From NCBI GenBank assembly GCA_017448975.1, contig JAFSKN010000052.1, positions 1-64,000 on the forward strand: DNA of 64,000 bases, read 5' to 3'. The position numbers were made by a program, and so were the translations under genes. The notes below the pieces were generated by a model, which saw only the letters and a program-made list of their open reading frames with translations, was not told the origin of the DNA and did no database searches. How positions within the stretch are numbered: the stretch's first letter is position 1; each line of letters opens with the position of its first letter. Source of the stretch: Clostridia bacterium (GTDB taxonomy: Bacteria > Bacillota > Clostridia > Christensenellales > Aristaeellaceae). Shown here in pieces: positions 7,082 to 56,338 of this stretch.

Positions 7082-7156
7082 GAGTGACGGAATAACTGCT
7101 TTCCGTCTTTTTTTATGACGATATTGTAAACTTGCGCTTTCTGAAAAGAATTGTCA

Positions 7157-7185
7157 TTGAATAATTGTAAAAATGCGTATATAAT
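7157..7185 (+). promoter_or_regulatory. Promoter of the DUF951-lepB operon
   Basis: TTGAAT (7157-7162), 17-base spacer, consensus TATAAT (7180-7185), 31 bases before the GTG start. Confidence 0.7.
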
Positions 7186-7216
7186 AGACCCATCGATCAT
7201 CAGGGAGGGGAGCCGC

Positions 7217-7432: not shown

Positions 7433-7442
7433 GAATCTGACC

Positions 7443-8096
7443 ATGCAGACGGAAAACAAGCCCGCCACCTTTTGGGAACGGCGCAAGGAAAGAATAGCGA
7501 AGCAGAAGGAAAAAGAAAAGAACAAACCCCTGGCCCTGAAAATTTGGAGCTGGGTGTGGACCCTCCTGGCAGCGGTGTTCATCGCCACCGCCGTGCGCGC
7601 CTTCATCGCGGAGCCTATCCGGGTGGACGGCACCAGCATGACCAACACCCTCAAGGACGGCGAAATCGTGCTGGCCACCAAATGGGATTATCTGCTGGGC
7701 AATCCCCAGCGCAACGATATCGTCATCTGCCGCTATCCCGGCCGCATGAACGAGCGGGGCGCCAGCCAGATCAACGTCAGCGCCGCCCTGTCCCTGGATA
7801 CCTACACCCTGTTCGTCAAGCGCCTGGTGGCCCTGCCCGGCGATACCGTGCAGATCACCGGCGGCCATCTGTACGTGAACGACGAATTGGTGGAGGACCC
7901 CGAATTTATGGCCAGCGTGCCCTCGGATTATGCCAAACGCACCCTGGGCGCGGATGAATATTTCGTCATGGGCGATAACCGCTTTTCCTCCCACGACAGC
8001 CGCGCCAGCGACGTAGGCCCCATTTCCCGCAATGCCATCATGGGCAAGGTGAAGGCCGTGCTCCTGCCCTTGAACCAGTTCCGCACCGTGAAATAA
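7443..8096 (+). CDS. lepB: Signal peptidase I
   Basis: A 217-residue membrane protease that removes signal peptides from exported proteins. A basic N-terminal tail (11-32) precedes one membrane segment (about 34-56). The Ser-Lys dyad is S65 in GTSMTNTL and K126 in FVKRLVALPGD; box E, MGDNRFSSHDSR, is intact. The ribosome site GAGAGGAG lies in the end of the DUF951 gene, so the two are translated from one message. Several secreted proteins encoded nearby (the NAGPA-type, PIG-L and phosphatase proteins) would be substrates. Confidence 0.95.
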   Translation: MQTENKPATFWERRKERIAKQKEKEKNKPLALKIWSWVWTLLAAVFIATAVRAFIAEPIRVDGTSMTNTLKDGEIVLATKWDYLLGNPQRNDIVICRYPGRMNERGASQINVSAALSLDTYTLFVKRLVALPGDTVQITGGHLYVNDELVEDPEFMASVPSDYAKRTLGADEYFVMGDNRFSSHDSRASDVGPISRNAIMGKVKAVLLPLNQFRTVK

Positions 8097-8111
8097 ACCG
8101 CCCCTTGCGGC

Positions 8112-8154
8112 AAAAAAACTCCTCCGCGCGTTTTCGACGCGGAGGAGTTTTTTG
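8112..8154. terminator. Bidirectional terminator between lepB and the NAGPA-type gene
   Basis: A stem of about 15 bases (AAAACTCCTCCGCG near 8115-8128 with CGCGGAGGAGTTTT near 8138-8151) with A-tract on the left and T-tract on the right, lying between convergent genes. Confidence 0.85.
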
Positions 8155-8163
8155 AAATTAAAA

Positions 8164-10050
8164 TCAGATGATGTTATCGGAATGGCCGATGCCGAACAGC
8201 TCGTTCTGCCTGCGGTTGGTGATGTCGCCGTAGTTGCCGGATTTGTTGATCTGGTGGCCCATGAACATCATCACGCTGGTGGCCCCGCCGTCTAAGTTGA
8301 TGGCGGAGGTGCAGCCCAGCTCAGCCATTTTTTTGCCCAGCCATACGCAGCCTTCGCCCTTGCTTTCGGAGGTGCGGCTTTCCACCACCACGGCGATGTA
8401 GTAGCCGGGTTCCACCACGCCCCAGGCGGTGCGGGGGTTGGGCGTGTTGCCAAATTCCGTGGAACGGGGGGATACTTCGCCGTTTTCCACCAGGATGGGG
8501 CCGAAGGACAGGGAATCGGTGGCGCCTGCGGCCAGCAGTTCCTTGGCGGTAACGGTGCCGTTTTTATGCAGGCTCACGGTGCCGTCGGGATACAGGGCCA
8601 TCACGTCCAAGGGCGGGTAGACGGTGGAGGTGGCCTTCTTGGGCCGGTCGAACAGCACCTTGCCGTCCCGGATGATCACGCCGATGGGATAGTTGTAGCT
8701 TTCCTCGTGATCCCGTTCGATGCGGTAAATGAAGTAGTCGGAATTGATGGCGAATACCACCTTGTGCTGCTGGGCGATGTTGTCCGCATAGGTCTTATAG
8801 CGGTCGCCGTAGGAGGTGTAGTGGGCTTCGTCGTAGGGGAAGAAATCAAACAGCTCGCTTTCGTCCCGGGTGAAGATCTGGGCCTCGTACCAGCGCAGGG
8901 GCTGCTTTTTGCTGTTGGTGCCGGTGCGGCGGTTGATTTCGATGCGCAGGGTCTGGGAGCAGTACAGCCACAGGCCCGCTGCCCCGTCCTGATACACGAA
9001 TTCTTCCTCGCCCTCCGGCAGGAAGCCTTCGGCGGTGAGGGTGGGGAACAGCTCATGAATGGTTTCGGGATTGGCGGCGGCGGTGAAGCCATTCTTTCCG
9101 GTACCGGCGTCCGGCGCCGCGGCGGTTTCAGCGGGCTTGGTTTCCGGCTGCCGGGTGGGTTCGGGCTGGGCGGTGGTCAGCACCACCGCGGGAATATCGT
9201 CCGCGGGACGCTGGGTGGGCTCCGGCTGGACGCTGGGGGCTTCCGTGACGGCGGCCTGAACGGCAACGCCATCGGAGAGCGTCAGCTCATAGGGGGAATT
9301 AAGGGTGCCGCTGCCGCCCCGGATGCGCAGCAGGCTTAAATCCACAGTGATGGCTGGGCGCACGCCCAAATCGCTGTTGCCCACGGAAATGCGGCCGATC
9401 TTGCCCTCGTCCATCACCCGGCGGTGCTGAAGGGGATAATCCGCGCTCCGGGTGCGGCTCCACCAGGGACTGTATTTATTGCCGCCCTTTGAATATTTGT
9501 ACAGATGAGGCTGGTTTCTGGTTTCTTTCCAGTAGTTATAGGAGGGCAGCTCAAAGATGGGCGGATCGACCGCCACGCTGGCCCATTCCGTGCTCAGGCA
9601 CAGCCGCGCGTTATTGGAGGAAAAACCGATGGAAGCGTCCTTCATTTCATCGGAGGTGATCAGGGTCACCAGGGCGTTGTCCTCCGTGCGAATCAGCAGG
9701 GCGGCCTGTTCTTCCGCCGTAAAGGCGTCGTTCAGGAACGTGCTGTTCAGGTAATTATACAAATCGCTGGATTCCCAGCCCTTGTAATGCTCGTGATCGC
9801 CGTGTACGGGCGCGGCGAACAGGATATATTCGCTGAGCAGGTAGGCTTCCCCGTTCGCGCTTTTCAGCACACGCCACACGATGGGCCGCACCGTGCCGTC
9901 GGCGTCTGTGGGATAGGAGCCGAAGGCAACATATTCATACCCGCCGCTGCGGGAATAGCCCCGGATGCCCGCCGCGTCCTCCGCCTGGGCGGAAAAGACG
10001 GCGCACAGCATAAGCAGCAATGCGAAAAGCAAAGATATTTTTCTGATCAT
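8164..10050 (-). CDS. Secreted DUF6273 / phosphodiester glycosidase (NAGPA-type) protein
   Basis: A 628-residue exported protein. After a signal peptide (1-23) comes a DUF6273-like domain (about 35-250; YVAFGSYPT, PIVWRVLKS, SDLYNYLNSTFLNDAF), a Thr/Pro/Glu-rich linker (about 260-320), and a C-terminal phosphodiester glycosidase domain of the NAGPA/DUF2233 family (about 350-628; AINSDYF, GVIIRDGKVL, NPRTAWGV, SAINLDGGATSVMMFMG). Relatives uncover N-acetylglucosamine-phosphodiester bonds, so a surface glycan or teichoic-acid phosphodiester is a plausible substrate; this is inference. The ATG at 10050 has GGGGGATG seven bases upstream. An R2 element lies just before it. Confidence 0.8.
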   Translation of the reverse strand: MIRKISLLFALLLMLCAVFSAQAEDAAGIRGYSRSGGYEYVAFGSYPTDADGTVRPIVWRVLKSANGEAYLLSEYILFAAPVHGDHEHYKGWESSDLYNYLNSTFLNDAFTAEEQAALLIRTEDNALVTLITSDEMKDASIGFSSNNARLCLSTEWASVAVDPPIFELPSYNYWKETRNQPHLYKYSKGGNKYSPWWSRTRSADYPLQHRRVMDEGKIGRISVGNSDLGVRPAITVDLSLLRIRGGSGTLNSPYELTLSDGVAVQAAVTEAPSVQPEPTQRPADDIPAVVLTTAQPEPTRQPETKPAETAAAPDAGTGKNGFTAAANPETIHELFPTLTAEGFLPEGEEEFVYQDGAAGLWLYCSQTLRIEINRRTGTNSKKQPLRWYEAQIFTRDESELFDFFPYDEAHYTSYGDRYKTYADNIAQQHKVVFAINSDYFIYRIERDHEESYNYPIGVIIRDGKVLFDRPKKATSTVYPPLDVMALYPDGTVSLHKNGTVTAKELLAAGATDSLSFGPILVENGEVSPRSTEFGNTPNPRTAWGVVEPGYYIAVVVESRTSESKGEGCVWLGKKMAELGCTSAINLDGGATSVMMFMGHQINKSGNYGDITNRRQNELFGIGHSDNII

Positions 10051-10126
10051 GTTCATCCCCCGATCCAATGGTTTTCCAGACTTGTTCTTCTGTGAAAGAC
10101 GGCGCACCCGCGCTGTCCTCCTGAAC

Positions 10127-10214
10127 AGTATACCATAACGCTTGCCGCTTTTCCCTCCGGGAAGCGGCAAGACGGCCGACCGCGCTTCGCGCCGGTCGCC
10201 TCGTTATTATACCA
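10127..10214 (-). repeat. R2 two-hairpin element, copy a
   Basis: An 85-base unit with ends TATACCATAACG and CGTTATTATACCA, containing two hairpins: CTTGCCGCTT/AAGCGGCAAG and CGACCGCGC/GCGCCGGTCG. It differs from copy b at 29665 by a single base in the core. The left end, read on the minus strand, supplies TATACT about 77 bases before the NAGPA-type gene start. Confidence 0.85.
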
Positions 10215-10304
10215 TATTTCCCCTTTCCTCACAAGCGGGGGAATGGGGGGATTTGCAAGATCGTTCCCGAAAAATGTTCCCTTAGCTTTCAATTGACAGG
10301 AGAT

Positions 10305-11069
10305 TTATGCCGTATGCTCTAAGCTCAGCTTGTCCGCGATCAGGGCAATGAACTCACCGTTGGTGGGCTTATCGTCCGGCTGGGCCACCTCGCAGCCGAA
10401 AGCTTTGTTCAGGGTATCCACCCGGCCCCGGCTCCAGGCGACCTCGATGGCGTGGCGGATGGCGCGCTCCACCTTGCTGGAGGTGGTGCCGAAGCGCCGG
10501 GCAATGGCGGGATACAGCTCCTTTGTGATGCCGCCGATCATTTCCGGCTTTTCGATCACCAGCTTGATGGCCTCCCGCAGGTACTGGTAGCCCTTGATGT
10601 GGGCGGGAATGCCCATGGCCAGGAACAGGTTGGAAATGCGGTCGTCCAGATTTTGCCCTGGGGCGTACAGCGGTTCCAGAGGAGCGGCGGCCTGATGGGC
10701 GGCCACCTCCCGGATACGGTCCACCAGCACGGGCAGATCCACCGGCTTGATCATGTAGTACATCACGCCCAACTCCACCGCCCGGCGGATAAAATCGTCC
10801 CGGCCCAGGGCGGTGACGGCGATCACCCGGGGCCGCTTTTCCAGAACTGTGCGCTGCAGCTGGGCCAGAACGCCGAAGCCGTCCAGAGACGGCATGATCA
10901 TATCCAGCAGCACGACATCCGGCTGCTTTTCCTGAATCAATTTCAATGCGTCCTGGCCGTTGGACGCCTCGCCCGCGATGGCAATGTCCTTCTGGGTTTG
11001 CAGGTACTGGATCAGGGCGGCGCGCAGTTCGTCATTGTCGTCTACGATGGCGGTATGGATCATGGTCAT
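10305..11069 (-). CDS. spo0A: Sporulation master regulator Spo0A
   Basis: A 254-residue response regulator. The receiver (about 4-122) has the acidic pocket DD (10-11), phospho-acceptor D56 in VVLLDMIMPSLDG, and the switch Lys in MIKPVDLP. The C-terminal Spo0A DNA-binding domain (about 145-250) is diagnostic: GIPAHIKGYQYLREAI, ELYPAIARRFGTTSSKVERAIRHAIEVAW and KPTNGEFIALIADKL. When phosphorylated it controls entry into sporulation by binding 0A boxes. The ATG at 11069 follows GAGGGGA by 11 bases. It stands alone with its own promoter. Confidence 0.97.
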   Translation of the reverse strand: MTMIHTAIVDDNDELRAALIQYLQTQKDIAIAGEASNGQDALKLIQEKQPDVVLLDMIMPSLDGFGVLAQLQRTVLEKRPRVIAVTALGRDDFIRRAVELGVMYYMIKPVDLPVLVDRIREVAAHQAAAPLEPLYAPGQNLDDRISNLFLAMGIPAHIKGYQYLREAIKLVIEKPEMIGGITKELYPAIARRFGTTSSKVERAIRHAIEVAWSRGRVDTLNKAFGCEVAQPDDKPTNGEFIALIADKLSLEHTA

Positions 11070-11212
11070 GGATGGTCAGCTCCCCTCAATAAAATAGAAT
11101 GAAGACATCCCGGCGGTACGCGGGATCATGGATGCGAACGGTGTGGGGTGCCTCTGCTGGATGCGCTCCCATTCCGCACCATTCCTTTCCTTGCTTGGAA
11201 GATTCGTCCATT

Positions 11213-11240
11213 ATTATAACGGAAAGAAGATAATTATCAA
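11213..11240 (-). promoter_or_regulatory. Probable spo0A promoter
   Basis: On the minus strand: TTGATA (11235-11240), 16-base spacer, TATAAT (11213-11218), about 145 bases upstream of the start, giving a long leader. Confidence 0.6.
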
Positions 11241-11265
11241 TGAAATAATAACTATAAGAATTGTT

Positions 11266-42152: not shown

Positions 42153-42211
42153 TGAATAAGAAATATAAAGCAAAAAATCCCGCCGCTTGCGCGACAGGAT
42201 TTTCGCTTTAG

Positions 42212-42554
42212 TGGAGGTGAGGGGAATCGAACCCCTGTCCGAAGATTCAGCTGCATGGTTTTCTCCGAGCGCAGGCAGGGTTTTGACATTCCCTCCCGCG
42301 CACGCCCCCTGCCGGGCTTGCGCGTTCAGTAGCCTCTTGTGCCGAGCTGCTCCGAGGCCCCCGCAGCTCCGTTCCCTACATCAATGACGCCGGTGGGCCG
42401 AGCCGTAGGCGCTCGGTGTCGACGCGCTGCTCTTAGGCAGCGAAAGCGTACTGAGTATTGTCAGTTAATTTTATTTTCCCCGTTTTAACGCGGTCAGGGT
42501 CCGCGGCTCGCTTACCATACCTCCGACGATCCCCGTCGAAACCAGTGCACCCCC
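42212..42554 (-). ncRNA. ssrA: Transfer-messenger RNA (tmRNA)
   Basis: The 5' end GGGGGTGCACTGG (from 42554) pairs with the 3' end CACCTCC (42213-42219) to make the tRNA-like acceptor stem, and the T arm GGGGTTCGATTCCCC lies at the 3' end. The tag reading frame ends DNTQYAFAA followed by TAA (42433-42435). CCA is not encoded: the DNA continues ACT after the acceptor stem. It rescues stalled ribosomes together with SmpB, whose gene lies just upstream on the same strand. Confidence 0.93.
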
Positions 42555-42559
42555 ATGAA

Positions 42560-42662
42560 TCAGAGTTGAGATTTGAGATTTATTTAGTTGATTTGTTGAG
42601 AATTCATGACCTACGATCAAAATGATTATCTCAAGTCTCAACTCTTCACTCTCAACTCTATT
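42560..42662. repeat. R1 heptamer inverted repeat, copy 6
   Basis: Left arm CAGAGTTGAGATTTGAGATT (42561-42580 and on) and right arm 42626-42660 (TTATCTCAAGTCTCAACTCT and on), lying between the smpB stop and the tmRNA 5' end. Confidence 0.75.
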
Positions 42663-42665
42663 CTT

Positions 42666-43139
42666 TCATTCTCCCCGGTTGTTGGTGCGCACCATGCGGG
42701 CCATTTCCCGCTTCACGTCCCGCTCGGCGGTGCTGGCGCGCTTGTCGTGCAGGTGTTTGCCCACGCACAGGCCCAGGTTCAATTTCATGCGGCCGTCTTT
42801 CAGGTACACGTCCAGGGGCACCAGCGCGTAGCCCTGGCGCTGCACCTGGCCGCCTAACTTGCGGATCTCGCTTTTATGCAGCAGCAGGCGTTTGGGGCGC
42901 AGGGGGTCGGTGTTGAAGATGTTGCCCTGCTCGTAGGGGCTGATGTGCATGCCCTGCACGAAAATTTCCCCGTCCTTCACCATGGCGTAGCTTTCCTTCA
43001 GGTTCACCTTGCCCTGGCGCATGGATTTGACTTCCGTGCCCTTGAGCTCAATGCCGCACTCGATGCTTTCCTCGATGAAGAAGTCGTGCCGGGCCTTTTT
43101 GTTCTGGGCAATGGGCTTCACGCCCTTTTTCTTGGCCAT
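42666..43139 (-). CDS. smpB: SsrA-binding protein SmpB
   Basis: A 157-residue protein that binds tmRNA and brings it to stalled ribosomes. Recognised from [40 protein letters not shown] and the C-terminal basic tail [19 protein letters not shown]. The ATG at 43139 is chosen (AAGGAGG 8 bases upstream) over one two codons earlier, which is too close. ssrA lies 111 bases downstream on the same strand, so partner protein and RNA may be cotranscribed. Confidence 0.96.
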
Positions 43140-43178
43140 CGGCATCCCCTCCTTCCGCATCATTTCCTGTGCCGAAAG

Positions 43179-43207
43179 ATTATAACACAAAATAAATGGA
43201 ATTGCAA
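43179..43207 (-). promoter_or_regulatory. Promoter of smpB
   Basis: On the minus strand: TTGCAA (43202-43207), 17-base spacer, TATAAT (43179-43184), 39 bases before the start. Confidence 0.7.
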
Positions 43208-43221
43208 TGGGATGCGTTCCT

Positions 43222-43310
43222 ATGTTATAATAACGAGGCGACCGGCGCGGAGCGCGGTCGGCCGTCTCGCCGCTTCCGAATGGAAAAGCGGCGAGCGTTA
43301 TGTTATAATA
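43222..43310 (+). repeat. R2 two-hairpin element, copy c (inverted)
   Basis: Same architecture as copies a and b in opposite orientation, more diverged. In the first hairpin both sides changed together (CTTGCCG/CGGCAAG to CTCGCCG/CGGCGAG), which supports selection on base pairing. The TATAAT at 43304-43309 in its right end lies 20 bases before proA. Confidence 0.75.
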
Positions 43311-43329
43311 TGCATCGGGAGGGATGAAC

Positions 43330-44604
43330 ATGCAAGTAAAAGAATTGGCACAGAAAGCCCGCAGCGCTTCCTATACCTTATCCGCCCTGCCCGCGGAGCA
43401 AAGAAACGAGGCGCTCAAAAACATACAGCAGGCGCTGAAAGCCCGCGCACAGGACATTTTTGCACAGAATAAACTGGACTGCGCCCAGGCGGAGGAAGAA
43501 AAACTGGCCTTCCCGCTGCTCAAACGCCTGAAATTCGACGAAGGAAAGCTCAAGGACGTATTGGACGGCATTTCTTCGCTGATCGCCCTGCCCGATCCCC
43601 TGGGCCGCACCACCCTGGCCCGGGAGCTTGCGCCGGGGCTGGATTTATACCGGGTCAGCTGCCCCATCGGCGTGATCGGGGTGATTTTTGAATCCCGGCC
43701 CGACGCTCTGGTGCAGATCGCGTGCCTGTGCCTGAAAAGCGGCAACGCGGCCCTGCTGAAAGGGGGCAGGGAAGCCCTGCGCACCAACCGCGCGCTTATG
43801 GCCGCCATGGAGGAAGGGGCCAAGGGCTTGCTGCCGGAGGGCTGGGCCGCCCTGCTGGAAACCCGGGACGACGTAAACGAAATGCTTTCCCAGGACGACA
43901 GCATCGACCTCATCATTCCCCGGGGCAGCAACGCCTTTGTGCGCTACATCATGGATCACACCCGCATCCCTGTCATGGGCCACGCGGAGGGCCTGTGCCA
44001 CACTTACGTGGACGCTTCCGCCGATATGGATATGGCCGTGAAAGTGACCGTGGACGCCAAGACCCAGGCACTGGCGGTGTGCAACGCCACGGAAACGTTG
44101 CTGGTGCACAAAGATATCGCTGCCGAATTCCTGCCCCCCTGCGAGGCCGCGCTGAAAGCCAAGGGCGTGGAAATCCGGGGCGACCAGCGCACCCAGGCCA
44201 TCATTGACTGCATCCCCGCCACGGAGCAGGATTGGGCTACGGAATATTTGGACGCCATCCTGTCCGTCAAGATCGTGGATTCCATCGACGAGGCCATCGC
44301 CCACATCAACCGCTTCGGCTCCCACCACACCGACGCCATCCTGGCACAGAATGAAAATGCCCAGCGCCGTTTCCTCACCGGGGTAGACAGCGCCGGGGTG
44401 TACGTGAACTGCTCCACCCGCTTTGCCGACGGCTTCCGCTACGGCTTCGGGGCCGAGGTGGGCATTTCCACCGGCAAGCTCCACGCCCGCGGCCCCGTGG
44501 GCCTGGAGGGCCTTTGCACCTACAAATACCACCTGCTGGGCTCCGGCCAGACCGTGGAGGACACCGTGACCGGGCACGTTAAGTATACCCATCGGGATTT
44601 GTGA
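43330..44604 (+). CDS. proA: Glutamate-5-semialdehyde dehydrogenase (gamma-glutamyl phosphate reductase)
   Basis: A 424-residue enzyme reducing gamma-glutamyl phosphate to glutamate semialdehyde, the second step of proline synthesis. Motifs: [46 protein letters not shown], and the active-site Cys in [15 protein letters not shown]; the end [12 protein letters not shown] is typical. The ATG at 43330 follows GGGAGGG with good spacing; the ATG two codons earlier is too close. proB is not adjacent. Confidence 0.96.
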
Positions 44605-45040: not shown

Positions 45041-45093
45041 ATGCCTTGCTATGCTTGGCGCACAAAAAAACCAGCCATTTCTGACTGGTTCAC

Positions 45094-45138
45094 TGGAGCT
45101 GATACCCAGATTCGAACTGGGGACCTCATCCTTACCAA
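45094..45138 (-). repeat. Left attachment site, tRNA-Thr 3' fragment
   Basis: 45 bases identical to 56451-56495, starting TGGAGCTGATACCC. After ACCAA it diverges from the tRNA, so only the anticodon loop to CCA part is present. Confidence 0.9.
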
Positions 45139-45239
45139 TTATATCGAATGTATTATCTGGTGTTTTCCGCTGTTGTCCGATTTTTTTCCAAAATCCCCGT
45201 TATGTTAGATGGGATAAGGATTCTTGCTATCTCTTGTTA

Positions 45240-45765
45240 TTACGGAGAAGCGGGAACAAGGAGCACAAAGCGGCACATATAGAGACAGCGTTTCTGAGCG
45301 ACCTTGAACTGGTGCTTGGACAGATGGCGACGGAAGAAAAAAGCAATGAACTGACCGCCATTCCTAAACTGCTGGAAATACTGGCTTTGACGAAATGTAC
45401 GGTAACAATTGACGCCATGGGAACACATCGGGACATAGCGGAAGCGATTCATGACAAAGGCGCAGATTATATCCTCCCAGTAAAGGAAAACCAGCCGCCG
45501 CTGCTGGACGACATCAAGCTATATGCTGAATCGGATGTCTTGCCGCAGGATAAAGACGTGTTGAAACAGGCTTATCGTTATGCGGAAGTAAATGAAAAAG
45601 GGCATGGACGGATTGAAAAGCGTGAATGCTGGCTGTTTGATGATGCTGAATGGTTAAAGGAACGTCATGATTGGCCTTTTCTGCATGGCGTCGCAGTCAT
45701 ACGCAGTACCCGCACAATGCTGGACACTGGAGAAGTCAGCAGTGTAAACATCGAATTCCAGCTTT
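45240..45765 (+). pseudogene. ISAs1-family transposase fragment
   Basis: The frame contains the ISAs1 core HIETAFLSDLELVLGQ, EEKSNELTAIPKLLEILAL, VTIDAMGTHRDIAEAIHDKGADYILPVKENQ. Both the N-terminal part and the C-terminal domain are missing; the right side runs into the end of another transposase fragment on the opposite strand at about 45765. Not functional. Confidence 0.75.
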
Positions 45766-46142
45766 GTAAACGCCTTATATGAAGCAAAAAACGTGTTAAG
45801 CCCCAGTTCTTCAAGTATCTTTTCTAAAAGCACCTGGCAGAACATCTTTGGATGTCCGAAGCAATCAGGACTTCCTTCGTTTATGGAAAGGCGATAAGTT
45901 TCAATTGCTTTATTCTCGGAACAGTATGGAAGCAAAGAGGGAATCAAAGGATTACCTGCCTTAAAGGACTTCTTCAGACGCTCGACATAGTCCGGTTGCC
46001 CATCATTGAAGCGGGACAGAGGACCGATATTCATGATGACTTTCTTGCTGGATACTTTATAGCCATCTTTGTTCCTGATCCGGACTGACTCGACAAGCCG
46101 GAGATAAGTTTTTCCGTTATTTTGCACAGCTTCAACGAACAT
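45766..46142 (-). pseudogene. IS1634/IS1380-like transposase N-terminal fragment
   Basis: The frame starting at 46142 reads MFVEAVQNNGKTYLRLVESVR and KVIMNIGPLSRFNDGQPDY, the N-terminus of IS1634-like transposases, up to about SYKAFTKLEFDV, where similarity ends at the junction with the ISAs1 fragment. The catalytic DDE part is gone. Confidence 0.6.
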
Positions 46143-46408: not shown

Positions 46409-46437
46409 TTGACGAAGCAAAAGAACCATGCTATAAT
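46409..46437 (+). promoter_or_regulatory. Promoter of the island signalling cassette
   Basis: TTGACG (46409-46414), 17-base spacer, TATAAT (46432-46437). The leader to the permease-fusion start is about 185 bases and holds a 35-codon frame (ATG 46492) with a good AAAGGAGC site, possibly a leader peptide. No cyclic-di-GMP riboswitch consensus was seen. Confidence 0.7.
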
Positions 46438-46630: not shown

Positions 46631-49600
46631 ATGAACGAAACACTATCTGCTGACAACAGCACCACAAAACTGCAGCCCTATCTTTCGCCGCTGGCCGTCT
46701 GGGCGTTATCGGTTGGCTCGGCCATAGGCTGGGGCTCTCTGGTAGTTACCAGCAGCGCCTACCTGTCCCAGGCCGGACCGGCAGGGTCCATTATCGGTCT
46801 GCTGATCGGCTTTGTCATGATGTTGATGGTGTCCAGCCATTACCATTTTTTGGCTAACCGTTATCCCTCGGTCGGCGGCCTTTATCATTATGTGAAAATG
46901 ATCCTCGGCTACGACTTTGGCTTCATTATTGCCTGGTTCATGTTTCTGATCTACATATCCATCTTCTGGGCCAACGCCACGAGTATTCCTCTGTTCGCAC
47001 GGTATTTCCTTCAGGGAGTATTCAAGCAGGGGTATCTCTTTACGGTATTCAACTATGAGGTCTACCTTGGCGAAGCGCTGGTGACGCTAGCTGTGATGTG
47101 GCTCGTCGGTCTGCTGTGCATGAAGAGCAAGAAGGCGACGGCTCGTGCGATGGTGGTCATGGTCCTGATTTTCACCGTTGGCATTGCGGTTTGCTTTGTT
47201 GTTGCAATGGTGGGCCACAAGAACTCCGGAATGACAATGGCCCCTGCCTTCCTGCCTGACACAAACGTCCTCCGTCAGGTCATCCGTATCGGCTTTTTAT
47301 CACCGTGGGCCTTTATTGGTTTTGAAAGTGTATCTCATTCTGCCGAAGAATACCGGTTCAAACACGACAACATGTTCCGGATCCTCTTTATATCTGTGGC
47401 TGTCACGACAGCTCTGTATATCTTTATCATCCTGATGAGCGTTTCCGCCTATCCGGAGGGATGCACCAGCTGGCTCGACTATATCAGCCGTCTGAACGAG
47501 TTTGAAGGGATCGAGGGGCTTCCTGCTTTTTACGCCGCCTACCATTATCTTGGCGATACAGGCGTTTATATCCTGATGGCTTCCCTGCTGGCGCTGGTGC
47601 TGACAAGCCTGATCAGTATGCTGCGCACCGTCAGCCGCCTGTGCTACGCCGTCGCGCAGGACGGCATCCTGCCGAAGCGCTTTTCCGAGCTCAATAAAAA
47701 GCAGATACCGGTCAACACGATTCTTCTGGTGCTCCTTATCTCCACACCCATCCCGTTTCTCGGCAGAACCGCGATCGGCTGGATCGTGGATACCACGACG
47801 ATCGGGGCGACCATCATATACGGCTTTGTGTCCATTGTGGTGTTTAAGGCTTCCGGGAAGGAGGGCGTGAAAGGTAACCACTTTATCAGCGGTATATGTC
47901 TGTTTATTTTGGTCGCTTTCCTGGTCTTCCTGCTGTTCCCGAGCGTTTTCTCCGACTACACCATCGAGACCGAAACCTATGTGCTCATGGCCGGCTGGTC
48001 TATCCTCGGACTGATTTATTTTAACCTTGTTATCCGGAAGGATCATGACAGGAAATTTGGCAGAGCCATCTACGTCTGGATCTTCCTGCTTATCTTCGTG
48101 GTTCTGAATGGCATGACCTGGTCGGAAAGACTGAATGAAAACAGGGAAAACCATATTATGGCGGAGATTTCCGACTATTATGACGGCACGACTGACAGCG
48201 AGACGCAGGCCATGGACAAGGATGACTATCTTGCTCTCCAGCTCGAGCGTCTTCATGCCGCGGACAATGTCAGCGCTCTGGTCATCATCTCACTGTTCGG
48301 CGTGTCCCTCGTCGTCATGTTTATCAATTATACGACCATAAATAAGTGGGAAAGGAAGGCCGCCAGCGAGCGCGATCAGGCCCGCACAATCGTATTGACA
48401 GACCCTCTGACCAGGGTTAAGAGCAAGCAGGCGTTTCTCATACGTGAGAAGGAGTTCGACGATGCCATTGCGGCGGGAACAGCAGAGAAATTCGCCGTTG
48501 CTGTTTGTGATGTAAACGGGCTGAAGGTTATCAATGACACTCTTGGCCATAAAGCGGGCGATGAATACATCATCAAAGCCAGCAGGATGATCTGCGACAT
48601 TTTCCAGCACAGCCCGGTTTACCGGACGGGCGGAGACGAATTCGTGGTGGTGCTGACCGGGCGCGATTATCTCATCCGGAAGGAATTGGTGCTGGCGCTG
48701 CACGACCGCTCAGTAGAACATATCAGCACGAATGAAGTCGTTATCTCAGGCGGCCTGTCAGATTACAAGCCCGGCGAGGATACCAGCTTCCACGACGCGT
48801 TTGAACGCGCGGACGCACTGATGTATGAAGAAAAGAAGCTGCTGAAGGGCATGGGTGCCATCTCGCGTGAAGACGCGGAGACGGACGGCAAGCCGATGTT
48901 CCAGATGGATGGGGACGGGGAAATACTGCACTTCAATCGCCGCATTCTCATCGTGGAGGATGAGGAGATCAACCGATCTATCCTGGGCCATATTCTCAAA
49001 GAAGACTATGAAATTCTGTACGCCGCAAACGGCCTCGAAGCGCTGGAGCAGGTCAAAATCCATAAAGACGAGCTTGCGATCGTGCTGCTGGATCTTCATA
49101 TGCCGCAGCTGAGTGGGATGGAAGTTCTGAAGGTGATGAAGGAAGAGGATGAGCTGCGGGATATCCCGGTCATCGTCATGACGTCAGACCAGACCGCGGA
49201 GGTCGATTGCCTGAAGATCGGCGCCATCGACTTTATTCCCAAGCCATATCCTTCCGCCGAAATCATCCAGGCCCGCATCACCCGGTGCGTCGAACTGACA
49301 GAAAAACGGAGCATCATCCAGTCCACGGAACGCGACAGCCTGACGGGTCTGTTCAATCTGGATTACTTCCTGCGTTTCGTGCGGGTGTACGACCAGCATT
49401 ACATGGAGATGCCCATGGACGCCATTATTCTGGATATCAACCATTTCCACATGCTCAACGAGCGCTACGGAAAACAGTACGGCGACAGCATCCTTGCGCG
49501 GCTCGGCAGCCGCGTCCGTCAGCTCTCGCGTGAGATCGGCGGTGTGGCCTGCCGCCGGAACGCGGACACCTTCTACATTTACTGTCCGCACCAGGAGGAT

Positions 49601-50629
49601 TACAGCCTCATTCTGGACAAGGCTTCGGAGGGCCTCGTGGGCGAAAACGTCTCGGAGGACCGGGTCCGGCTGCGCATGGGCGTTTACTCCCGGGTGGATA
49701 AGTCGCTCCAGATCGAGCGCCGCTTTGATCATGCGAAGACAGCGGCGAATACGGCCAAGAGCGGTTATCTGAAAGCGATCGGCATTTATGACACCGAGAT
49801 GTATGAGGAGGAACTGTTCAGAGAGCGTCTGCTGGAGGATTTCAAGCCGTCTCTGGAGAACGGCCGCTTCATGGTTTGCTTTCAGCCCAAGTTCGATATC
49901 CGTCCCGATCAGCCTGTGCTGGCCAGCGCGGAGGCGCTGGTGCGCTGGGATCATCCGGAACTGGGGCTCATCAAGCCGGCCCTGTTTATCCCGCTGTTAG
50001 AGGACAACGGCCTGATCCTGGAGCTCGACCGCTTCGTGTGGCGCAAAACCGCCGCGAGGATCCGGGAATGGAAGGACCGCCAGGGCTTCTCCGTTCCGGT
50101 ATCTGTGAACGTGTCCCGCATCGATATGCTGACGCCGAACCTGAAGAGCGTTTTCAAGGAGATCCTGGAGGAGTACAGCCTCGATGCGAAGGATCTGATT
50201 TTGGAAATCACGGAATCGGCTTATACGGGCGATTCGGATCAGGTCATCGCCACGGCCATGGACCTGCGCGGGATGGGGATGGGCTTCCGCATCGAGATGG
50301 ACGACTTCGGCACCGGCTATTCGTCGCTGGGCATGCTGTCGAAGCTGCCCATCGACGCGCTGAAGCTTGATATGAGCTTCATACGCAGCGCCTTCCGGGG
50401 GACAAGGGACATGCGCATGATCGAGCTGATCATCGACATTGCGAATTATCTGCATGTGCCTGTGGTGGCCGAAGGCGTGGAGACCGAGGAACAGTATCTT
50501 GCCCTCAGGGAGCTGGGCTGCGATATGGCGCAGGGCTATTATTTCTCCAAGCCCGTACCGGCGGAGTCCTTCGAGCAAATCCTGCGGGAGCGGATAAAAG
50601 CCGCGGCGGACGGCGCGGCTATCAAATGA
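46631..50629 (+). CDS. APC-type permease fused to GGDEF-REC-GGDEF-EAL domains
   Basis: A 1332-residue membrane signalling protein. Residues about 15-500 are a 12-helix amino acid/polyamine permease of the APC fold (SVGSAIGWGSLVV in the first helix), then one more outside loop (505-555) and a helix (about 556-575). The cytoplasmic part has GGDEF 1 (600-760, intact GGDEF at 667-671), a receiver (778-895, phospho-acceptor D821 in VLLDLHMPQ), GGDEF 2 (905-1065, degenerate: RNADTF at 976-981), and EAL (1080-1320, E1101 in EALVRW, with VNVS, EITES, DDFGTGYSS, KLD and AEGVE all present). It should make and/or break cyclic-di-GMP under control of a receiver and perhaps of transport. GAGGAGAG precedes the ATG. 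Confidence 0.92.
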   Translation: MNETLSADNSTTKLQPYLSPLAVWALSVGSAIGWGSLVVTSSAYLSQAGPAGSIIGLLIGFVMMLMVSSHYHFLANRYPSVGGLYHYVKMILGYDFGFIIAWFMFLIYISIFWANATSIPLFARYFLQGVFKQGYLFTVFNYEVYLGEALVTLAVMWLVGLLCMKSKKATARAMVVMVLIFTVGIAVCFVVAMVGHKNSGMTMAPAFLPDTNVLRQVIRIGFLSPWAFIGFESVSHSAEEYRFKHDNMFRILFISVAVTTALYIFIILMSVSAYPEGCTSWLDYISRLNEFEGIEGLPAFYAAYHYLGDTGVYILMASLLALVLTSLISMLRTVSRLCYAVAQDGILPKRFSELNKKQIPVNTILLVLLISTPIPFLGRTAIGWIVDTTTIGATIIYGFVSIVVFKASGKEGVKGNHFISGICLFILVAFLVFLLFPSVFSDYTIETETYVLMAGWSILGLIYFNLVIRKDHDRKFGRAIYVWIFLLIFVVLNGMTWSERLNENRENHIMAEISDYYDGTTDSETQAMDKDDYLALQLERLHAADNVSALVIISLFGVSLVVMFINYTTINKWERKAASERDQARTIVLTDPLTRVKSKQAFLIREKEFDDAIAAGTAEKFAVAVCDVNGLKVINDTLGHKAGDEYIIKASRMICDIFQHSPVYRTGGDEFVVVLTGRDYLIRKELVLALHDRSVEHISTNEVVISGGLSDYKPGEDTSFHDAFERADALMYEEKKLLKGMGAISREDAETDGKPMFQMDGDGEILHFNRRILIVEDEEINRSILGHILKEDYEILYAANGLEALEQVKIHKDELAIVLLDLHMPQLSGMEVLKVMKEEDELRDIPVIVMTSDQTAEVDCLKIGAIDFIPKPYPSAEIIQARITRCVELTEKRSIIQSTERDSLTGLFNLDYFLRFVRVYDQHYMEMPMDAIILDINHFHMLNERYGKQYGDSILARLGSRVRQLSREIGGVACRRNADTFYIYCPHQEDYSLILDKASEGLVGENVSEDRVRLRMGVYSRVDKSLQIERRFDHAKTAANTAKSGYLKAIGIYDTEMYEEELFRERLLEDFKPSLENGRFMVCFQPKFDIRPDQPVLASAEALVRWDHPELGLIKPALFIPLLEDNGLILELDRFVWRKTAARIREWKDRQGFSVPVSVNVSRIDMLTPNLKSVFKEILEEYSLDAKDLILEITESAYTGDSDQVIATAMDLRGMGMGFRIEMDDFGTGYSSLGMLSKLPIDALKLDMSFIRSAFRGTRDMRMIELIIDIANYLHVPVVAEGVETEEQYLALRELGCDMAQGYYFSKPVPAESFEQILRERIKAAADGAAIK

Positions 50630-50652
50630 AACAAAAACGGAGGTAGAAGAAA

Positions 50653-50991
50653 ATGACGCTTGACGCATTAAAAGCTTTCGGCGCGAATACCGCCGAGGGA
50701 ATGGCACGGTGCCTGAACAACGAGGCTTTTTATCTGAAGATGGTCGCCATGACGCTGGCGGACGGGAACTTTGATGCGCTGAAGACTGCCATGGATGCCG
50801 GAGACATCAGCAGGGCTTTTGCTGCTGCCCATTCGTTGAAGGGTACGACCGGCAACGTGGCGCTTACGCCGATTTATGAGCCGGTTTGCGCGCTGACGGA
50901 GCTGCTGCGCGGCAAGGACACGCAAGCTGAGAGCGGCGATGCGCTGCTGGAGCAGATCATGGCAGCTCGGGAACAGGCGCTGCGTCTGTGA
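50653..50991 (+). CDS. Free-standing histidine phosphotransfer (Hpt) protein
   Basis: A 112-residue all-helical Hpt protein with phospho-accepting H60 in AAHSLKGTTGNV. Hpt proteins carry phosphate between the receivers of a hybrid kinase and a final receiver. It lies 23 bases after the permease-fusion gene, which holds a receiver, and upstream of the hybrid kinase gene with two receivers, so it is very likely the link between them. ACGGAGG precedes the ATG. Confidence 0.9.
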   Translation: MTLDALKAFGANTAEGMARCLNNEAFYLKMVAMTLADGNFDALKTAMDAGDISRAFAAAHSLKGTTGNVALTPIYEPVCALTELLRGKDTQAESGDALLEQIMAAREQALRL

Positions 50992-51075
50992 CGCATACAG
51001 AAACAGCCAACTGCGAAACACTGTTATCGCGATCAGCCGCGGCGGTGGAAAAACAGAAAGAGGAGAAGAATCAAA

Positions 51076-51732
51076 ATGAAAAAGCATATTGTCTGTTTTG
51101 GCGATTCCAATACGCACGGCTACTGCGCCGATCCAAACGACTGTGCCGACGGCGGCGATCGCTTTAACGAGAGAGAGCGTTGGACATGCCTGCTTCAAAA
51201 TCGTCTTGGCGAGGACTTCCTTGTGCTGGAGGAGGGGCTCTCCGGCCGCACGACCGTGTTCTCTGATCCCCTGCACGAGAGCATGCCGGGCCTCGAGACC
51301 ATTTATCCCTGCCTGATGAGCCATGAGCCTGTGGACCTGCTGATCATCATGCTGGGCACCAACGACACCAAGGAACGCTTCGCGGCGAACGCGCCTGCCA
51401 TCGCCATTGGTATGGAGAGACTGCTTCTCAAGTGTAAAAGTATCCCCTGCTGGGGCGGGAAGCAGCCTAATATTCTGGTTGTCTGTCCGCCCCCCCTGGG
51501 AGAAGGCTTTCATGACGAAGTAATGGGCAAGGGCTGCGTTGAAAAAGCTGCCGCGCTGCCTCCGTATATGGAGGCGGTTGCCCGCCGTAACGGCGCGCGT
51601 TACCTCAACGCGGAGATGTGCGAGTTCAACTCAATAGACTTCACCCATCTGACCAGACGCGGGCACGCGCAGCTGGCCGATACGCTCTTGCCGCTTGTGA
51701 GGGAGCTGCTTGCTTACCGTGAAAACACGTGA
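51076..51732 (+). CDS. SGNH/GDSL hydrolase
   Basis: A 218-residue esterase-fold protein with the four SGNH blocks: GDSNTHG (nucleophile Ser), GL near EEGLSGRTT, GTND, and DFTHLTRRGH (Asp/His). No signal peptide is visible, so it probably acts in the cytoplasm. Relatives include arylesterases and deacetylases of small molecules. Its place between the Hpt and kinase genes suggests it makes or removes a ligand tied to the signalling system; this is inference from position. GAGGAG precedes the ATG. Confidence 0.88.
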   Translation: MKKHIVCFGDSNTHGYCADPNDCADGGDRFNERERWTCLLQNRLGEDFLVLEEGLSGRTTVFSDPLHESMPGLETIYPCLMSHEPVDLLIIMLGTNDTKERFAANAPAIAIGMERLLLKCKSIPCWGGKQPNILVVCPPPLGEGFHDEVMGKGCVEKAAALPPYMEAVARRNGARYLNAEMCEFNSIDFTHLTRRGHAQLADTLLPLVRELLAYRENT

Positions 51733-51792
51733 CGATTTGCAGATGAGGTGGCGGTCGCGGCAGCGAAATAGCGAAGGGAGGCGGAATATGCT

Positions 51793-54330
51793 GTGAAAAA
51801 GAATTTGGTCATAGCTGTCAACGTGTTCATCACGGTGGCTATGCTGACCTTTGTGGCTCTTTATTCCAGCTTTGAGCACAGGGATACGACTCAAAGGCAG
51901 ATCGAGCATTTTGAAAACACCGCGGTCACCATGGAGCGTGTTACGGAGAATTATCTGGAGGGAGAACAGCGCATCTGTGACGTGTGGGCGCGCTACATCA
52001 ACAGCAAGGAAATGACCATGGAGGAAGCTGTCTCCTTCATCAGCATCTCGCATGTCCTCCCGAACGCCTCAGCGCATATCGTTTATCTGGATACGCTGTC
52101 CGGCCTGTCTACGAGAGCAAAGAAGGACATATCCGACGATTATTCCGTCTCCTATACGCGGATGGATCTTCTGAACGATGTGAGCTGGATCTATGATATC
52201 GGGCGATCCATCAACATTTCCCGTGCCTATACGAACCCGGTCAACGGGGAACAGTCCCTCGCGTTCTGCAATTTTATCACGCTTCACGATCCAGAAACCG
52301 GCGATTCCCGAGATGCCGTTTTGCTGCGGGTGCTGCCGATCTCGGAGCTGGAGCAGAAGTGGGTCTTCCCCCAGGAGGAATTCGAGAATGCCGAGCTTTC
52401 CATAATCGACGCGGACGGCGATTATATTATCAAGGGCCATTCCTACAAAAACTCCAGTTTCTTTGAGTTTTATAAATCTTACAATGTGATTGATTCCATC
52501 TCTGCTCAGGATCTTTATGGAAAAGTCACTTCGTCGACCGGCTCTTTCATTATGCGCAATTCCCGCGGCGAGGAATGCATCCTCGCCTATACCCCCGTTG
52601 CCGCGACGGGCGGATGGACGCTCCTGAGCTTCATGCCGATGAAGGACCTGAACGTAAATACCGAAAACTGGCTGTTGATCGGCGTTGTTTCCGCAGGCCT
52701 CCTGATCCTGTTCGTATTCGATCTGGCAGTCATGCTCTATTTCAATAAGAGGCTCCATGCAGCAGCCAGAGAAGCGGAGGCGGCGAACAAGGCAAAAACT
52801 GACTTCCTCTCCACCATGTCCCACGATATTCGGACGCCCATGAACGCAATCATGGGGCTTACAACACTTACGGAGAAAAACCTGGGCGATCCGGAATCGG
52901 TTGTCGACAATCTTCGGAAAATCGGCCTCGCCAGCAATCATCTGCTGACGCTGATCAACGATATCCTGGATATTTCCAAAGTGGAAAGCGGCAAGCTGAA
53001 TCTGAGCCCGCTGACCTTCTCTATCGTCGAGACGGCGGAGAACCTGATCAACATCTCCCAGCCGATGATCAAAGAAAAGAATATTGATTTCAGCTTCAGG
53101 ATTGACAGCATGGAAAAGGAATATCTGTACGCCGACCAGCTGCGGCTGAATCAGATCTATATCAACATTCTTTCCAACGCCATCAAATATACGGAGCCGG
53201 GCGGGCGGGTCAGCGTGGATATGCGGGAGAAAGAAAGTGCGGTCGCGGGCAGCGTCAAGCTGATCTACGTTGTTTCCGATACCGGCATAGGCATGAGCCC
53301 CGAATTCATGAAAAAGATGTATGAGCCATTCTCCCGCCAGACGGACAGCCGCGTGAACACCATTCAGGGCACGGGACTTGGGCTTGCGATCACCAAGCAG
53401 ATGGTGGAGCTGATGAACGGCACCATCGAATGCCAAAGCGAGCAGGGCAAAGGCACCACCTTTACGATCACACTGGATATTCCCGTTGCGGACAAGCAGT
53501 TGGAAGAAATGCGGCTCGATCCCATCGATGTGCTGATTGTAGATGACGACGAGGTTCTGCTGGAGACTGCTGTGGATACGATAGAATCACTGGGCGTCAC
53601 TGTGGAGAAAGCGAAGGACGGGCTGAGCGCTCTTGGGATGATCCGGCACCGTAAGGAGGCCGGAAACCAATACGGCGTGGCGATCCTGGACTGGAAGATG
53701 CCCGGAATGGACGGCGTAACCACCGTCCGGCACATCCGCACGGAGATCGACGCCAATATCCCCATTCTTCTGATCTCCTCTTACGACTGGTCGGACATCG
53801 AGGACACGGCGAAAGAAGCCGGCGTAAACGGCTTTATCAGCAAGCCGCTGTTCCGGTCCAAACTCTACGAAAAATTCAACGAACTGCTGGGAAAGGAGGC
53901 AAAGTCCATTGAGCCGGAAGATGATTATTCCGACCTTGCTGGGTTGAACATCCTTATCGCAGAGGATAACGACATCAACTGGGAGATCATATCCGCCATG
54001 CTCTCCATGTTTGGCATCACGACGGAACGCGCGGAAAACGGCCAGATATGCGTTGAAAAAATGATTGAAGCGGGAAAAGGGAAATACGCCCTGATCTTCA
54101 TGGATATCCAGATGCCGATCATGAACGGGCTGGAAGCGACAAAGAATATCCGCGCGTTGGACGACCCCTGGGCCTCTTCCATCCCGATCATCGCCATGAC
54201 AGCCGACGCGTTCTCGGAAAACGTCGCGGAATGCATGAGCGTGGGCATGAACGGACACATCGCAAAACCCATCGACATAAAGCTTGTCATCAAAGAAATA
54301 CGGAGAATCAAGGAGGAAAAGAGACCATGA
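51793..54330 (+). CDS. Hybrid sensor histidine kinase with two receivers
   Basis: An 845-residue membrane kinase: helix 5-25, a large outside sensor region (about 30-295) resembling a Cache domain, helix about 297-318, HisKA with H344 in STMSHDIRTPMNAIMG, HATPase (QIYINILSNAIKYT, DTGIGMSPEF, GTGLGLAIT), receiver 1 (about 578-700, D633 in AILDWKMPGMDG) and receiver 2 (about 715-840, D771 in IFMDIQMPIMNG). The GTG start at 51793 is preceded by GGGAGG. The stop overlaps the next gene by four bases (ATGA), coupling it to the lipoprotein. Confidence 0.93.
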   Translation: MKKNLVIAVNVFITVAMLTFVALYSSFEHRDTTQRQIEHFENTAVTMERVTENYLEGEQRICDVWARYINSKEMTMEEAVSFISISHVLPNASAHIVYLDTLSGLSTRAKKDISDDYSVSYTRMDLLNDVSWIYDIGRSINISRAYTNPVNGEQSLAFCNFITLHDPETGDSRDAVLLRVLPISELEQKWVFPQEEFENAELSIIDADGDYIIKGHSYKNSSFFEFYKSYNVIDSISAQDLYGKVTSSTGSFIMRNSRGEECILAYTPVAATGGWTLLSFMPMKDLNVNTENWLLIGVVSAGLLILFVFDLAVMLYFNKRLHAAAREAEAANKAKTDFLSTMSHDIRTPMNAIMGLTTLTEKNLGDPESVVDNLRKIGLASNHLLTLINDILDISKVESGKLNLSPLTFSIVETAENLINISQPMIKEKNIDFSFRIDSMEKEYLYADQLRLNQIYINILSNAIKYTEPGGRVSVDMREKESAVAGSVKLIYVVSDTGIGMSPEFMKKMYEPFSRQTDSRVNTIQGTGLGLAITKQMVELMNGTIECQSEQGKGTTFTITLDIPVADKQLEEMRLDPIDVLIVDDDEVLLETAVDTIESLGVTVEKAKDGLSALGMIRHRKEAGNQYGVAILDWKMPGMDGVTTVRHIRTEIDANIPILLISSYDWSDIEDTAKEAGVNGFISKPLFRSKLYEKFNELLGKEAKSIEPEDDYSDLAGLNILIAEDNDINWEIISAMLSMFGITTERAENGQICVEKMIEAGKGKYALIFMDIQMPIMNGLEATKNIRALDDPWASSIPIIAMTADAFSENVAECMSVGMNGHIAKPIDIKLVIKEIRRIKEEKRP

Positions 54331-55613
54331 AAAAACTGATCTGCATCATTTTAATCTTTTGCATGGCCGTAACGCTGACGGGCTGCGGCGACAAAAAGCA
54401 GGAAGCCGACGCCGGATTCAAACCGGCTCTTGATACAAGCACCAGCTGCAATATCACGATAGCCGGAAGCTATGATAACTTTGAGGCGTTGGAGGCTGAA
54501 TTTGACAGGTTCAACGAGAAATATCCGAATGTGCGGCTCAGCTATGTGAAGCTGGACGACTACAACAACACGCTGGGTACGGTGCTGGAAGGCAATGACG
54601 CCCCCAACATCTTCTTCTCCTATACATGGATGATCGGAAATGAAAAATACGCTCCGGTCGTCGCTCACATGGAGGATCTTTCCGCCTCCTCCCTGGGGCT
54701 GGATCTGACCTGCATCCGCCCCGGCCTGATTAACCGCGACGCGGAAGGCCGTGTATTTCTGGTGCCGGTTTTCTCCAGGACCTATGGCATGCTGGTCAAC
54801 AACGATCTGTTTAAAAAGGAAGGCCTCAGCGTCCCGAGCACGTGGACAGAACTGCTGGCTGTGTGCGAAGCGTTCCGCGGCAAGGGATACTTAAGCCCGA
54901 TGATGGGCTACAGCCTCAAGTCTTCCAGTTGTTTCATGAACACGATCGCTTATCCGCTGTTTGTGGCCACGCTTGCCAAAAACCCGGAAGCACTGAAGCT
55001 TGCCAATGATCTGGACCCCGCGGCGGGAGAATACATGCGCCCGGCCCTGGAAGCCGTGGAGCAGCTGATTCAGAGCGGCTGCGTCAATCTTACCGCGTGT
55101 GATCAGATCGGGGACAACTATACCCAAGTGATCCTGCGTTTTTTTGAAGGCGACGTGCCGATGATGATCTGCGCCGGAGATACCGTGTCCGGAACCAAGA
55201 AACGGGAAAAACAGTCTGAAGCGTTTTCCAATGCGCCTTTCAAGTACTCATTTGCCCCGATCCCCATGGCGGATGACGGCGGATATTTTATCGACAGTCC
55301 TTCCATAGAGTTTTCCGTGAACAAGAACTGCGATAATCTGGCTATGACGAACGAGTTTATGCGGTTTCTGATCACAAACAAAGAATTGAATGAGATGGCT
55401 TCCGTAAAGCGTCTGGTAACGCCCACCACAGATATGTCTTTTGATGCGGTTTACGCGCCTTTCGGACAGGTGCCATCAAATCGGACCCTATCTCCGGAAA
55501 TGCTTGGCATTACGGATGCGCTCACGGCTCAAATCCGGCTCGCGGCGTTCTTTGTTGGAAAAGGAAATATCACCGTGGATGAAGCTGTAGCGATGTATGG
55601 AAGCCTTGAATAA
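54327..55613 (+). CDS. Orphan extracellular solute-binding lipoprotein (family 1)
   Basis: A 428-residue lipoprotein: signal with lipobox LTGC (Cys20), then a type 1 sugar/oligosaccharide-like binding fold (ITIAGSYDNFEALEAEFDRFNEKYPNV, FLVPVFSRTYGMLVNNDLFKKEGL, VPSTWTELLAVCEAFR). No permease or ATPase genes accompany it. Its start overlaps the kinase stop (ATGA, with AAGGAGG in the kinase end), which argues that it presents a ligand to the kinase sensor domain rather than feeding transport. Confidence 0.9.
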   Translation: MKKLICIILIFCMAVTLTGCGDKKQEADAGFKPALDTSTSCNITIAGSYDNFEALEAEFDRFNEKYPNVRLSYVKLDDYNNTLGTVLEGNDAPNIFFSYTWMIGNEKYAPVVAHMEDLSASSLGLDLTCIRPGLINRDAEGRVFLVPVFSRTYGMLVNNDLFKKEGLSVPSTWTELLAVCEAFRGKGYLSPMMGYSLKSSSCFMNTIAYPLFVATLAKNPEALKLANDLDPAAGEYMRPALEAVEQLIQSGCVNLTACDQIGDNYTQVILRFFEGDVPMMICAGDTVSGTKKREKQSEAFSNAPFKYSFAPIPMADDGGYFIDSPSIEFSVNKNCDNLAMTNEFMRFLITNKELNEMASVKRLVTPTTDMSFDAVYAPFGQVPSNRTLSPEMLGITDALTAQIRLAAFFVGKGNITVDEAVAMYGSLE

Positions 55614-56301: not shown

Positions 56302-56306
56302 AAAAG

Positions 56307-56338
56307 GGCCGGGGAACAGCTTCCCGGCCTGTTTTTTT
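56307..56338 (+). terminator. Terminator after the integrase remnant
   Basis: GGCCGGG (56307-56313) pairs with CCCGGCC (56323-56329), followed by TGTTTTTTT. Confidence 0.8.

Follow-up and report, generated by a model that had tools for sequence, protein, structure and literature searches.

Transporter folds are known to act as input modules of signalling proteins. Gap1 of yeast is a receptor of the amino-acid permease type and, like Ssy1, is a eukaryotic protein with no known joined enzyme domain. The fold of 5TMR and S-component receptors differs from the APC fold. Ssy1 is also an amino-acid permease-type receptor (PMC12958826), and the transporter-related membrane module of 5TMR / S-component receptors stands before histidine kinase (HK), GGDEF, EAL and PAS outputs (PMC11109136). 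Ks-Amt5 is a transporter fold repurposed as a sensor, with transport lost and the output joined C-terminally (PMC5764959). In other proteins, STAC links an SLC5 transporter to a histidine kinase or, in one case, a diguanylate cyclase (PMC7096432), and in the structure of one of these proteins, CbrA, the transporter contacts STAC (PMC13022988, cryo-EM preprint). Here we analysed a stretch of 64,000 nucleotides (the window) of contig JAFSKN010000052.1 from a Clostridia bacterium of the Aristaeellaceae (assembly GCA_017448975.1), in which one gene (46631-50629) joins an APC-type permease to a chain of cyclic-di-GMP signalling domains.

From sequence comparison, we consider it reasonably probable that the encoded protein works as a switch for cyclic-di-GMP with two inputs and arose by one gene fusion, with an APC-fold receptor cyclase as its first half and a response-regulator phosphodiesterase as its second. 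As the initial annotation had it, a single 1332-residue chain carries a permease, a GGDEF domain (GGDEF1), a receiver (REC) with D821, a degenerate GGDEF domain (GGDEF2) and an EAL domain in this order. The frame is intact, Pfam and motifs agree, and every domain scores above its own cut-off (Pfam GGDEF matches in two stretches, best at 589-736). The AA_permease_2 profile covers residues 18-442 (E 2.9e-32, 112.6 bits versus a cut-off of 27), and among solved chains CAT4 (9sqh, 9hjk) and 5oqt, an amino acid transporter from a bacterium, are nearest to the permease part in sequence. The twelve permease helices annotated initially are present, but two more transmembrane helices (TM) follow, TM13 (479-497) and TM14 (547-565), which enclose a loop of about 49 residues as judged by hydropathy. 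The total is 14, comprising 13 segments found by hydropathy and TM6, which lies under the threshold and was placed by homology.

Residues D627, K632, N635, D636 and G668-F671 of GGDEF1 are unvarying in 71 aligned sequences (the window protein and 70 of 76 relatives), and G667 is kept in at least 90% of them. The receiver has E776/D777, the phospho-acceptor Asp D821, and K871; D777, D821 and K871 are unvarying in 31 aligned sequences (the window protein and 30 of 40 relatives), as are the catalytic metal and base residues of the EAL domain (E1101, N1160, E1192, D1224, D1225, K1245, E1281 and Q1301). The catalytic residues of GGDEF1 and EAL are intact, and both domains are predicted to be active enzymes.

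Like the SLC5-STAC proteins CbrA and CrbS, the window protein has its transporter domain N-terminal to a signalling output. Unlike in those proteins, the transporter belongs to the APC family (AA_permease models alone match in Pfam, with no SLC5 domain), the coupler is a membrane hairpin rather than a cytoplasmic four-helix bundle, and the outputs of the family include HD-GYP and the GGDEF-REC-GGDEF-EAL chain. Residues 442-589, the segment of the membrane hairpin, have no match in the Pfam library used, in which the presence of a STAC model was not checked. Ks-Amt5 shares the plan of a transporter fold as sensor with a C-terminal output and differs in its Amt fold, its trimeric form and its output, a kinase alone; the window protein has no Amt match in Pfam. 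Ssy1 and Gap1 are alike in that amino-acid permease-type proteins serve as receptors. The second half resembles REC-GGDEF-EAL response-regulator phosphodiesterases, which are separate proteins there and joined to a membrane cyclase here; NCBIfam models, PvrR and DibA among them, give scores far under their cut-offs for this half. The initial remark that transporters rarely carry output domains has to be qualified in view of the published SLC5-STAC kinases and diguanylate cyclase and of Amt5 (PMC7096432, PMC5764959). The general idea is thus known from SLC5-STAC and Amt5. Among the titles listed in full-text searches of open-access literature, a scope that takes in few subscription papers, none deals with an APC permease fused to GGDEF, EAL, HD-GYP or kinase domains; the APC input, the hairpin coupler, the range of outputs and the chain uniting cyclase and phosphodiesterase are likewise absent from these titles.

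The permease part is probably a receptor, because relatives join the same part to several other signalling outputs. A scan of GTDB, for which three aligned sequences of the input module (585 residues) served as query, gave at least 594 stretches, 587 of them confirmed. We analysed the best 80 loci, so the counts lean to near relatives (loci from all sources are given as L numbers). These loci hold 85 distinct permease frames. The order of the window protein, with GGDEF-REC-GGDEF-EAL behind the permease, recurs in 44 loci (40 whole and 4 cut by contig ends), and the remaining frames are 32 permease-GGDEF, 5 HD-GYP and 3 kinase versions and L064, whose permease and GGDEF-REC-GGDEF-EAL parts are encoded by separate frames that overlap (6932-11244). 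All sources together yielded 126 distinct frames: 44 whole fusions, 35 whole permease-GGDEF frames (including L102, which is broken, and L132, which has PAS-like stretches), 5 HD-GYP and 18 kinase frames, stand-alone permeases and fragments.

Among the HD-GYP versions (L067, L068, L073, L090 and L091, with L073 recorded as Ruminococcus sp. YE71), the HD domain was confirmed by Pfam in L067 and by a profile started from L067 in the other four. PAS-PAS stretches, read from the sequence by eye, precede GGDEF in L111-L113 and the kinase in L099. Tandem permease-kinase genes of 815-848 aa are found in L123-L126 (two genomes of the same phylum but another family). L060:2-13733 holds six consecutive signalling genes: HK-REC, REC-GGDEF-EAL, HPt, permease-HK-REC-REC, permease-GGDEF-REC-GGDEF-EAL and permease-GGDEF. 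Many fusion relatives also have an extension of about 130 residues after the EAL domain, absent from the window protein (e.g., L012, L013 and L024); 34 of the 44 whole fusions measure at least 1447 residues from stop to stop, and the extension looked PAS-like by eye in 8 of 13 tails inspected. The possibility that it is a joined HPt was rejected given this PAS-like appearance, although no profile search was made of it.

The window genome itself contains a full-length paralogue (contig C42, 54% identical) and a third signalling protein (contig C61) in which the permease is joined to HisKA-HATPase-REC-REC. The gene order on C61 is HK-REC, REC-GGDEF-EAL, HPt and permease-kinase. Three of the four AA_permease_2 proteins of this genome are signalling fusions and the remaining one is stand-alone. 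The TM13-loop-TM14 hairpin is common to its cyclase and kinase versions. Two HPt domains exceed the cut-off in the genome, one in the window and one on C61, and each adjoins a permease signalling gene.

The distribution of the module is patchy, since only 4 of 398 genomes matched phylum-wide at E <= 1e-80, the window's own genome among the four. At E <= 0.001, with stand-alone permeases counted in, 16 of 60 relatives matched. Record titles name Bacillota, Actinomycetota, Spirochaetota, Chloroflexota and Pseudomonadota, but no conclusion here rests on these unverified labels, which are mostly of metagenome bins. Ruminococcus sp. YE71 and Lachnospiraceae bacterium AC2029 (L086) are among the records that carry no metagenome-bin mark.

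A tree of 114 permease parts (12 of the 126 frames, with permeases shorter than 400 residues, were left out) places the 8 stand-alone permeases and the 106 signalling ones on opposite sides of a branch (support 84) and requires 14 changes of the output label, compared with a mean of 55.1 for shuffled labels. The fused state alone changes nine times, and at least six of these changes are forced by well supported branches. Over the 106 signalling rows, 26 positions are unvarying, including G29, G33, G35, N115, T117, W226, G230, R379 and D387, and 13 of them fall within TM1, TM3, TM6 and residues 378-409. The pocket of the APC fold is lined by TM1, 3, 6, 8 and 10. The mean share of the top residue is 0.75-0.77 in TM1, TM3, TM6 and 378-409 and 0.72 in TM8, versus 0.49-0.59 in TM5, TM11, TM12 and TM14. 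T117 is present in all 106 signalling rows and in two of the eight stand-alone rows. This pattern fits a ligand pocket that was kept through changes of output, in a receptor or a transporter alike. Initially, the permease had been annotated as a transceptor; that it is an input module holds up, given that outputs change behind it and that substrate-lining helices are among its best conserved parts, and it may be either a receptor or a transceptor.

The exchange of kinase, HD-GYP and GGDEF outputs behind one permease is easier to reconcile with an input role than with an importer under regulation, and the genome retains a separate stand-alone permease. A true transporter tied to signalling, which would import while its cytoplasmic enzymes signal the flux or, conversely, control transport, seems unlikely to us on these grounds, even with the TM1 glycines and the TM6 pocket motif retained and with CbrA, a histidine transporter that also bears a kinase (PMC7096432), as a precedent. 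We also considered absence of the TM5 lysine of GkApcT as a sign of lost proton coupling. This was rejected: the lysine is absent from signalling and stand-alone rows alike and thus does not discriminate.

A permease that is a mere anchor or dimer scaffold, with signals entering by the receiver and perhaps by the TM13-TM14 loop, has no need of 26 residues that stay the same across 106 diverse rows, 13 of these in the pocket helices TM1, TM3 and TM6 and in 378-409, while the loop and TM14 drift. We judge this role improbable, although TM13/14 directly precedes the output in every cyclase and HD-GYP version found and the expression of CbrA targets survives deletion of the SLC5 domain (PMC7096432).

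The initial annotation had placed one control unit behind the permease. Most likely, the chain instead unites two systems, one being a receptor cyclase and the other a phosphodiesterase of the REC-GGDEF-EAL type. The window protein looks like a receptor cyclase joined once to a phosphorelay phosphodiesterase, because relatives split after GGDEF1 and because the fused EAL parts form one group. Close homologues always divided between permease and GGDEF1 had been named as a refuting result, and this is not what is seen, as the separate versions break after GGDEF1. For seven of the 35 permease-GGDEF frames, a REC-GGDEF-EAL frame of its own lies close by in the same orientation (L045, L050, L053, L056, L065, L079 and L089). 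Measured stop to stop, the two frames directly abut in L056, are 14 bases apart in L053 and overlap by 22 in L065.

In a tree of GGDEF2-EAL parts (from which we removed 4 frames because their loci were repeated, 4 that lack a GGDEF ahead of the EAL and 3 with an EAL of less than 200 residues), the 47 fused rows, 46 from single frames and one from L064, form one group with support 100. Genes from L141 and L142 were added because the rows of the first tree had nearly all been fetched through a permease. In each of these two loci, HK-REC-REC, REC-GGDEF-EAL and HPt genes form a cassette, and the stretch seen, for L142 a 3-kb contig, contains no permease; both genomes hold permease-kinase genes elsewhere. 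A set of 58 rows (support 98) unites the fused group with eight separate REC-GGDEF-EAL genes, the permease-free L141 and L142 and one other. Because the L141 and L142 genes group with the fused rows, the second half belongs to a type of phosphorelay phosphodiesterase also found as a separate protein. Both trees would be accounted for by a single fusion event, after which the second half was lost or the first replaced.

Against the background of these trees, an assembly join, a frameshift or a broken or chimeric gene can be dismissed as a negligible possibility, despite a source genome of 80 contigs that is 85% complete and a relative (L064) that reads as two overlapping frames, because the domain-order search proposed at the outset found the same order in 44 of the best 80 loci, whole in 40 of them, the same genome holds the full-length paralogue, and the fused EAL parts are one group.

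Several observations weigh against a receptor cyclase joined to a phosphorelay phosphodiesterase. For the first half, conservation of pocket helices is also expected of plain transporters, and the comparison is with eight stand-alone rows. The branch that separates these eight from the 106 signalling permeases (support 84) comes from a quick search in which the stand-alone branches are very long. The presumed coupler is poorly conserved, with a top-residue share of 0.40 in the loop and 0.49 in TM14; 9 of the 18 kinase frames have no match to the TM13/14 profile, and the hairpin is shorter in two of the kinase genes inspected by eye (L029 and L061). In the best studied case of a transporter-linked kinase reported in the literature considered here, histidine left the kinase activity of CbrA unchanged (PMC7096432).

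For the second half, nearly all rows of the EAL tree were gathered via a nearby permease, and 5 of the 13 separate REC-GGDEF-EAL genes lie outside the fused group (L053, L060, L135, L089 and L010, the last being the window genome's own C61 cassette). The permease-free genes support two joined systems about as much as these five outlying genes weaken it. Just 14 of the 109 signalling frames (L060 being entered twice, and many contigs being short) have an HPt gene within 6 kb on the same strand; five of the 14 besides the window's are fusions of the window type. HPt genes of the same genus (L138, L139, L140 and L144) are without these partners in the stretches fetched. In the same genus, L145:259-2795 has a REC-HD-GYP-GGDEF frame adjoining an HPt frame, another phosphorelay phosphodiesterase.

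If the protein is a two-input switch made of two joined systems, GGDEF1 is most likely under the control of the permease and the EAL part under that of the receiver. A small ligand, probably an amino acid, would be bound by the APC-fold permease, whose inward or outward state would reach GGDEF1 by way of TM13, the loop, TM14 and a short helix in the cytoplasm; GGDEF1 would then make cyclic-di-GMP. The hybrid kinase encoded downstream, perhaps informed by its partner binding lipoprotein, would send phosphate via the neighbouring HPt to D821. Phosphotransfer from this HPt, the proposed phosphodonor, is suggested by gene adjacency, which is uncommon among the relatives. D821 would then set the activity of the EAL domain, with the degenerate GGDEF2 as a go-between, and the synthesis and breakdown halves would work against each other. 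The earlier suggestion that the receiver adds a second input from a phosphorelay agrees with the presence of the HPt and hybrid kinase genes.

Table 1. Features of the fusion gene and its surroundings (window positions; residues are those of the fusion protein unless noted)
Feature	Position	Strand	Basis and details
Promoter-like site	46409..46437	+	Consensus scan; 11/12 match, TG before second hexamer
Whole fusion gene	46631..50629	+	1332 aa, ATG start, no internal stop
APC permease domain, residues 17-470, 12 helices	46679..48040	+	Pfam AA_permease_2; hydropathy
TM13, outer loop, TM14 and linker, residues 471-580	48041..48370	+	Without Pfam match
GGDEF1, catalytic residues intact, residues 589-736	48395..48838	+	Pfam; motif at 667-671
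Receiver domain, D821, residues 772-881	48944..49273	+	Pfam Response_reg
GGDEF2, degenerate	49331..49762	+	NADTF at 977-981
EAL domain, catalytic set present	49838..50554	+	Pfam EAL 1070-1308, E 1.1e-61
HPt protein, 112 aa	50653..50991	+	Pfam Hpt E 1.5e-7; His60 (of HPt) in AHSLKG
GDSL hydrolase between HPt and kinase genes	51076..51732	+	Pfam
Hybrid histidine kinase HisKA-HATPase-REC-REC, 845 aa	51793..54330	+	Profile matches
Solute-binding lipoprotein (SBP_bac_1)	54327..55613	+	ATG overlaps kinase stop as ATGA
Terminator-like hairpin past gene set, 10 pairs, with T run	56306..56330	+	Consensus scan

A purine-rich stretch resembling a ribosome site precedes the ATG of the fusion gene, and the HPt gene begins 23 bases past its stop (Table 1). 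It is plausible that the set from 46631 to 55613 forms one transcript. The promoter-like site ahead of it is weak, because the region is no richer in such sites than shuffles (8 found, shuffle mean 8.4). The terminator-like hairpin is only suggestive, given 14 such sites in the region versus a shuffle mean of 11.8; weaker sites of this kind also occur inside the gene set. The pair of lipoprotein and hybrid kinase resembles LuxPQ or TorTS pairs, and no transporter gene was identified among its scanned neighbours. No riboswitch was found 5' of the fusion gene at Rfam gathering scores; the matches in the window were one tmRNA and one tRNA. The tmRNA adjoins smpB (42209-43331), and a frame resembling a DDE transposase lies upstream of the fusion gene (45051-45782).

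To our knowledge, the sensing of free amino acids by rumen and gut bacteria is poorly known, as are the inputs of many GGDEF and EAL proteins. Among the relatives examined, those nearest to the window bacterium come from ruminant guts. Tentatively, the family could be an undescribed class of bacterial APC-fold receptors in which import is no longer the main function, a plug-in membrane sensor distributed across rumen and gut bacteria that serves one conserved kind of ligand and has at least six output arrangements. The window type would then work as a comparator within one chain: an amino acid outside the cell would set the synthesis of cyclic-di-GMP and a second ligand, acting through lipoprotein, kinase and HPt, its breakdown.

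Cyclases, histidine kinases and phosphodiesterases of two classes all follow one transporter-derived module, and both split and joined versions occur naturally. These proteins offer a comparative set for how an enzyme reads the conformational change of a transporter, a question that is also open for CbrA. The label 'amino acid permease' can hide receptors, as most of the AA_permease_2 proteins in this genome are signalling fusions.

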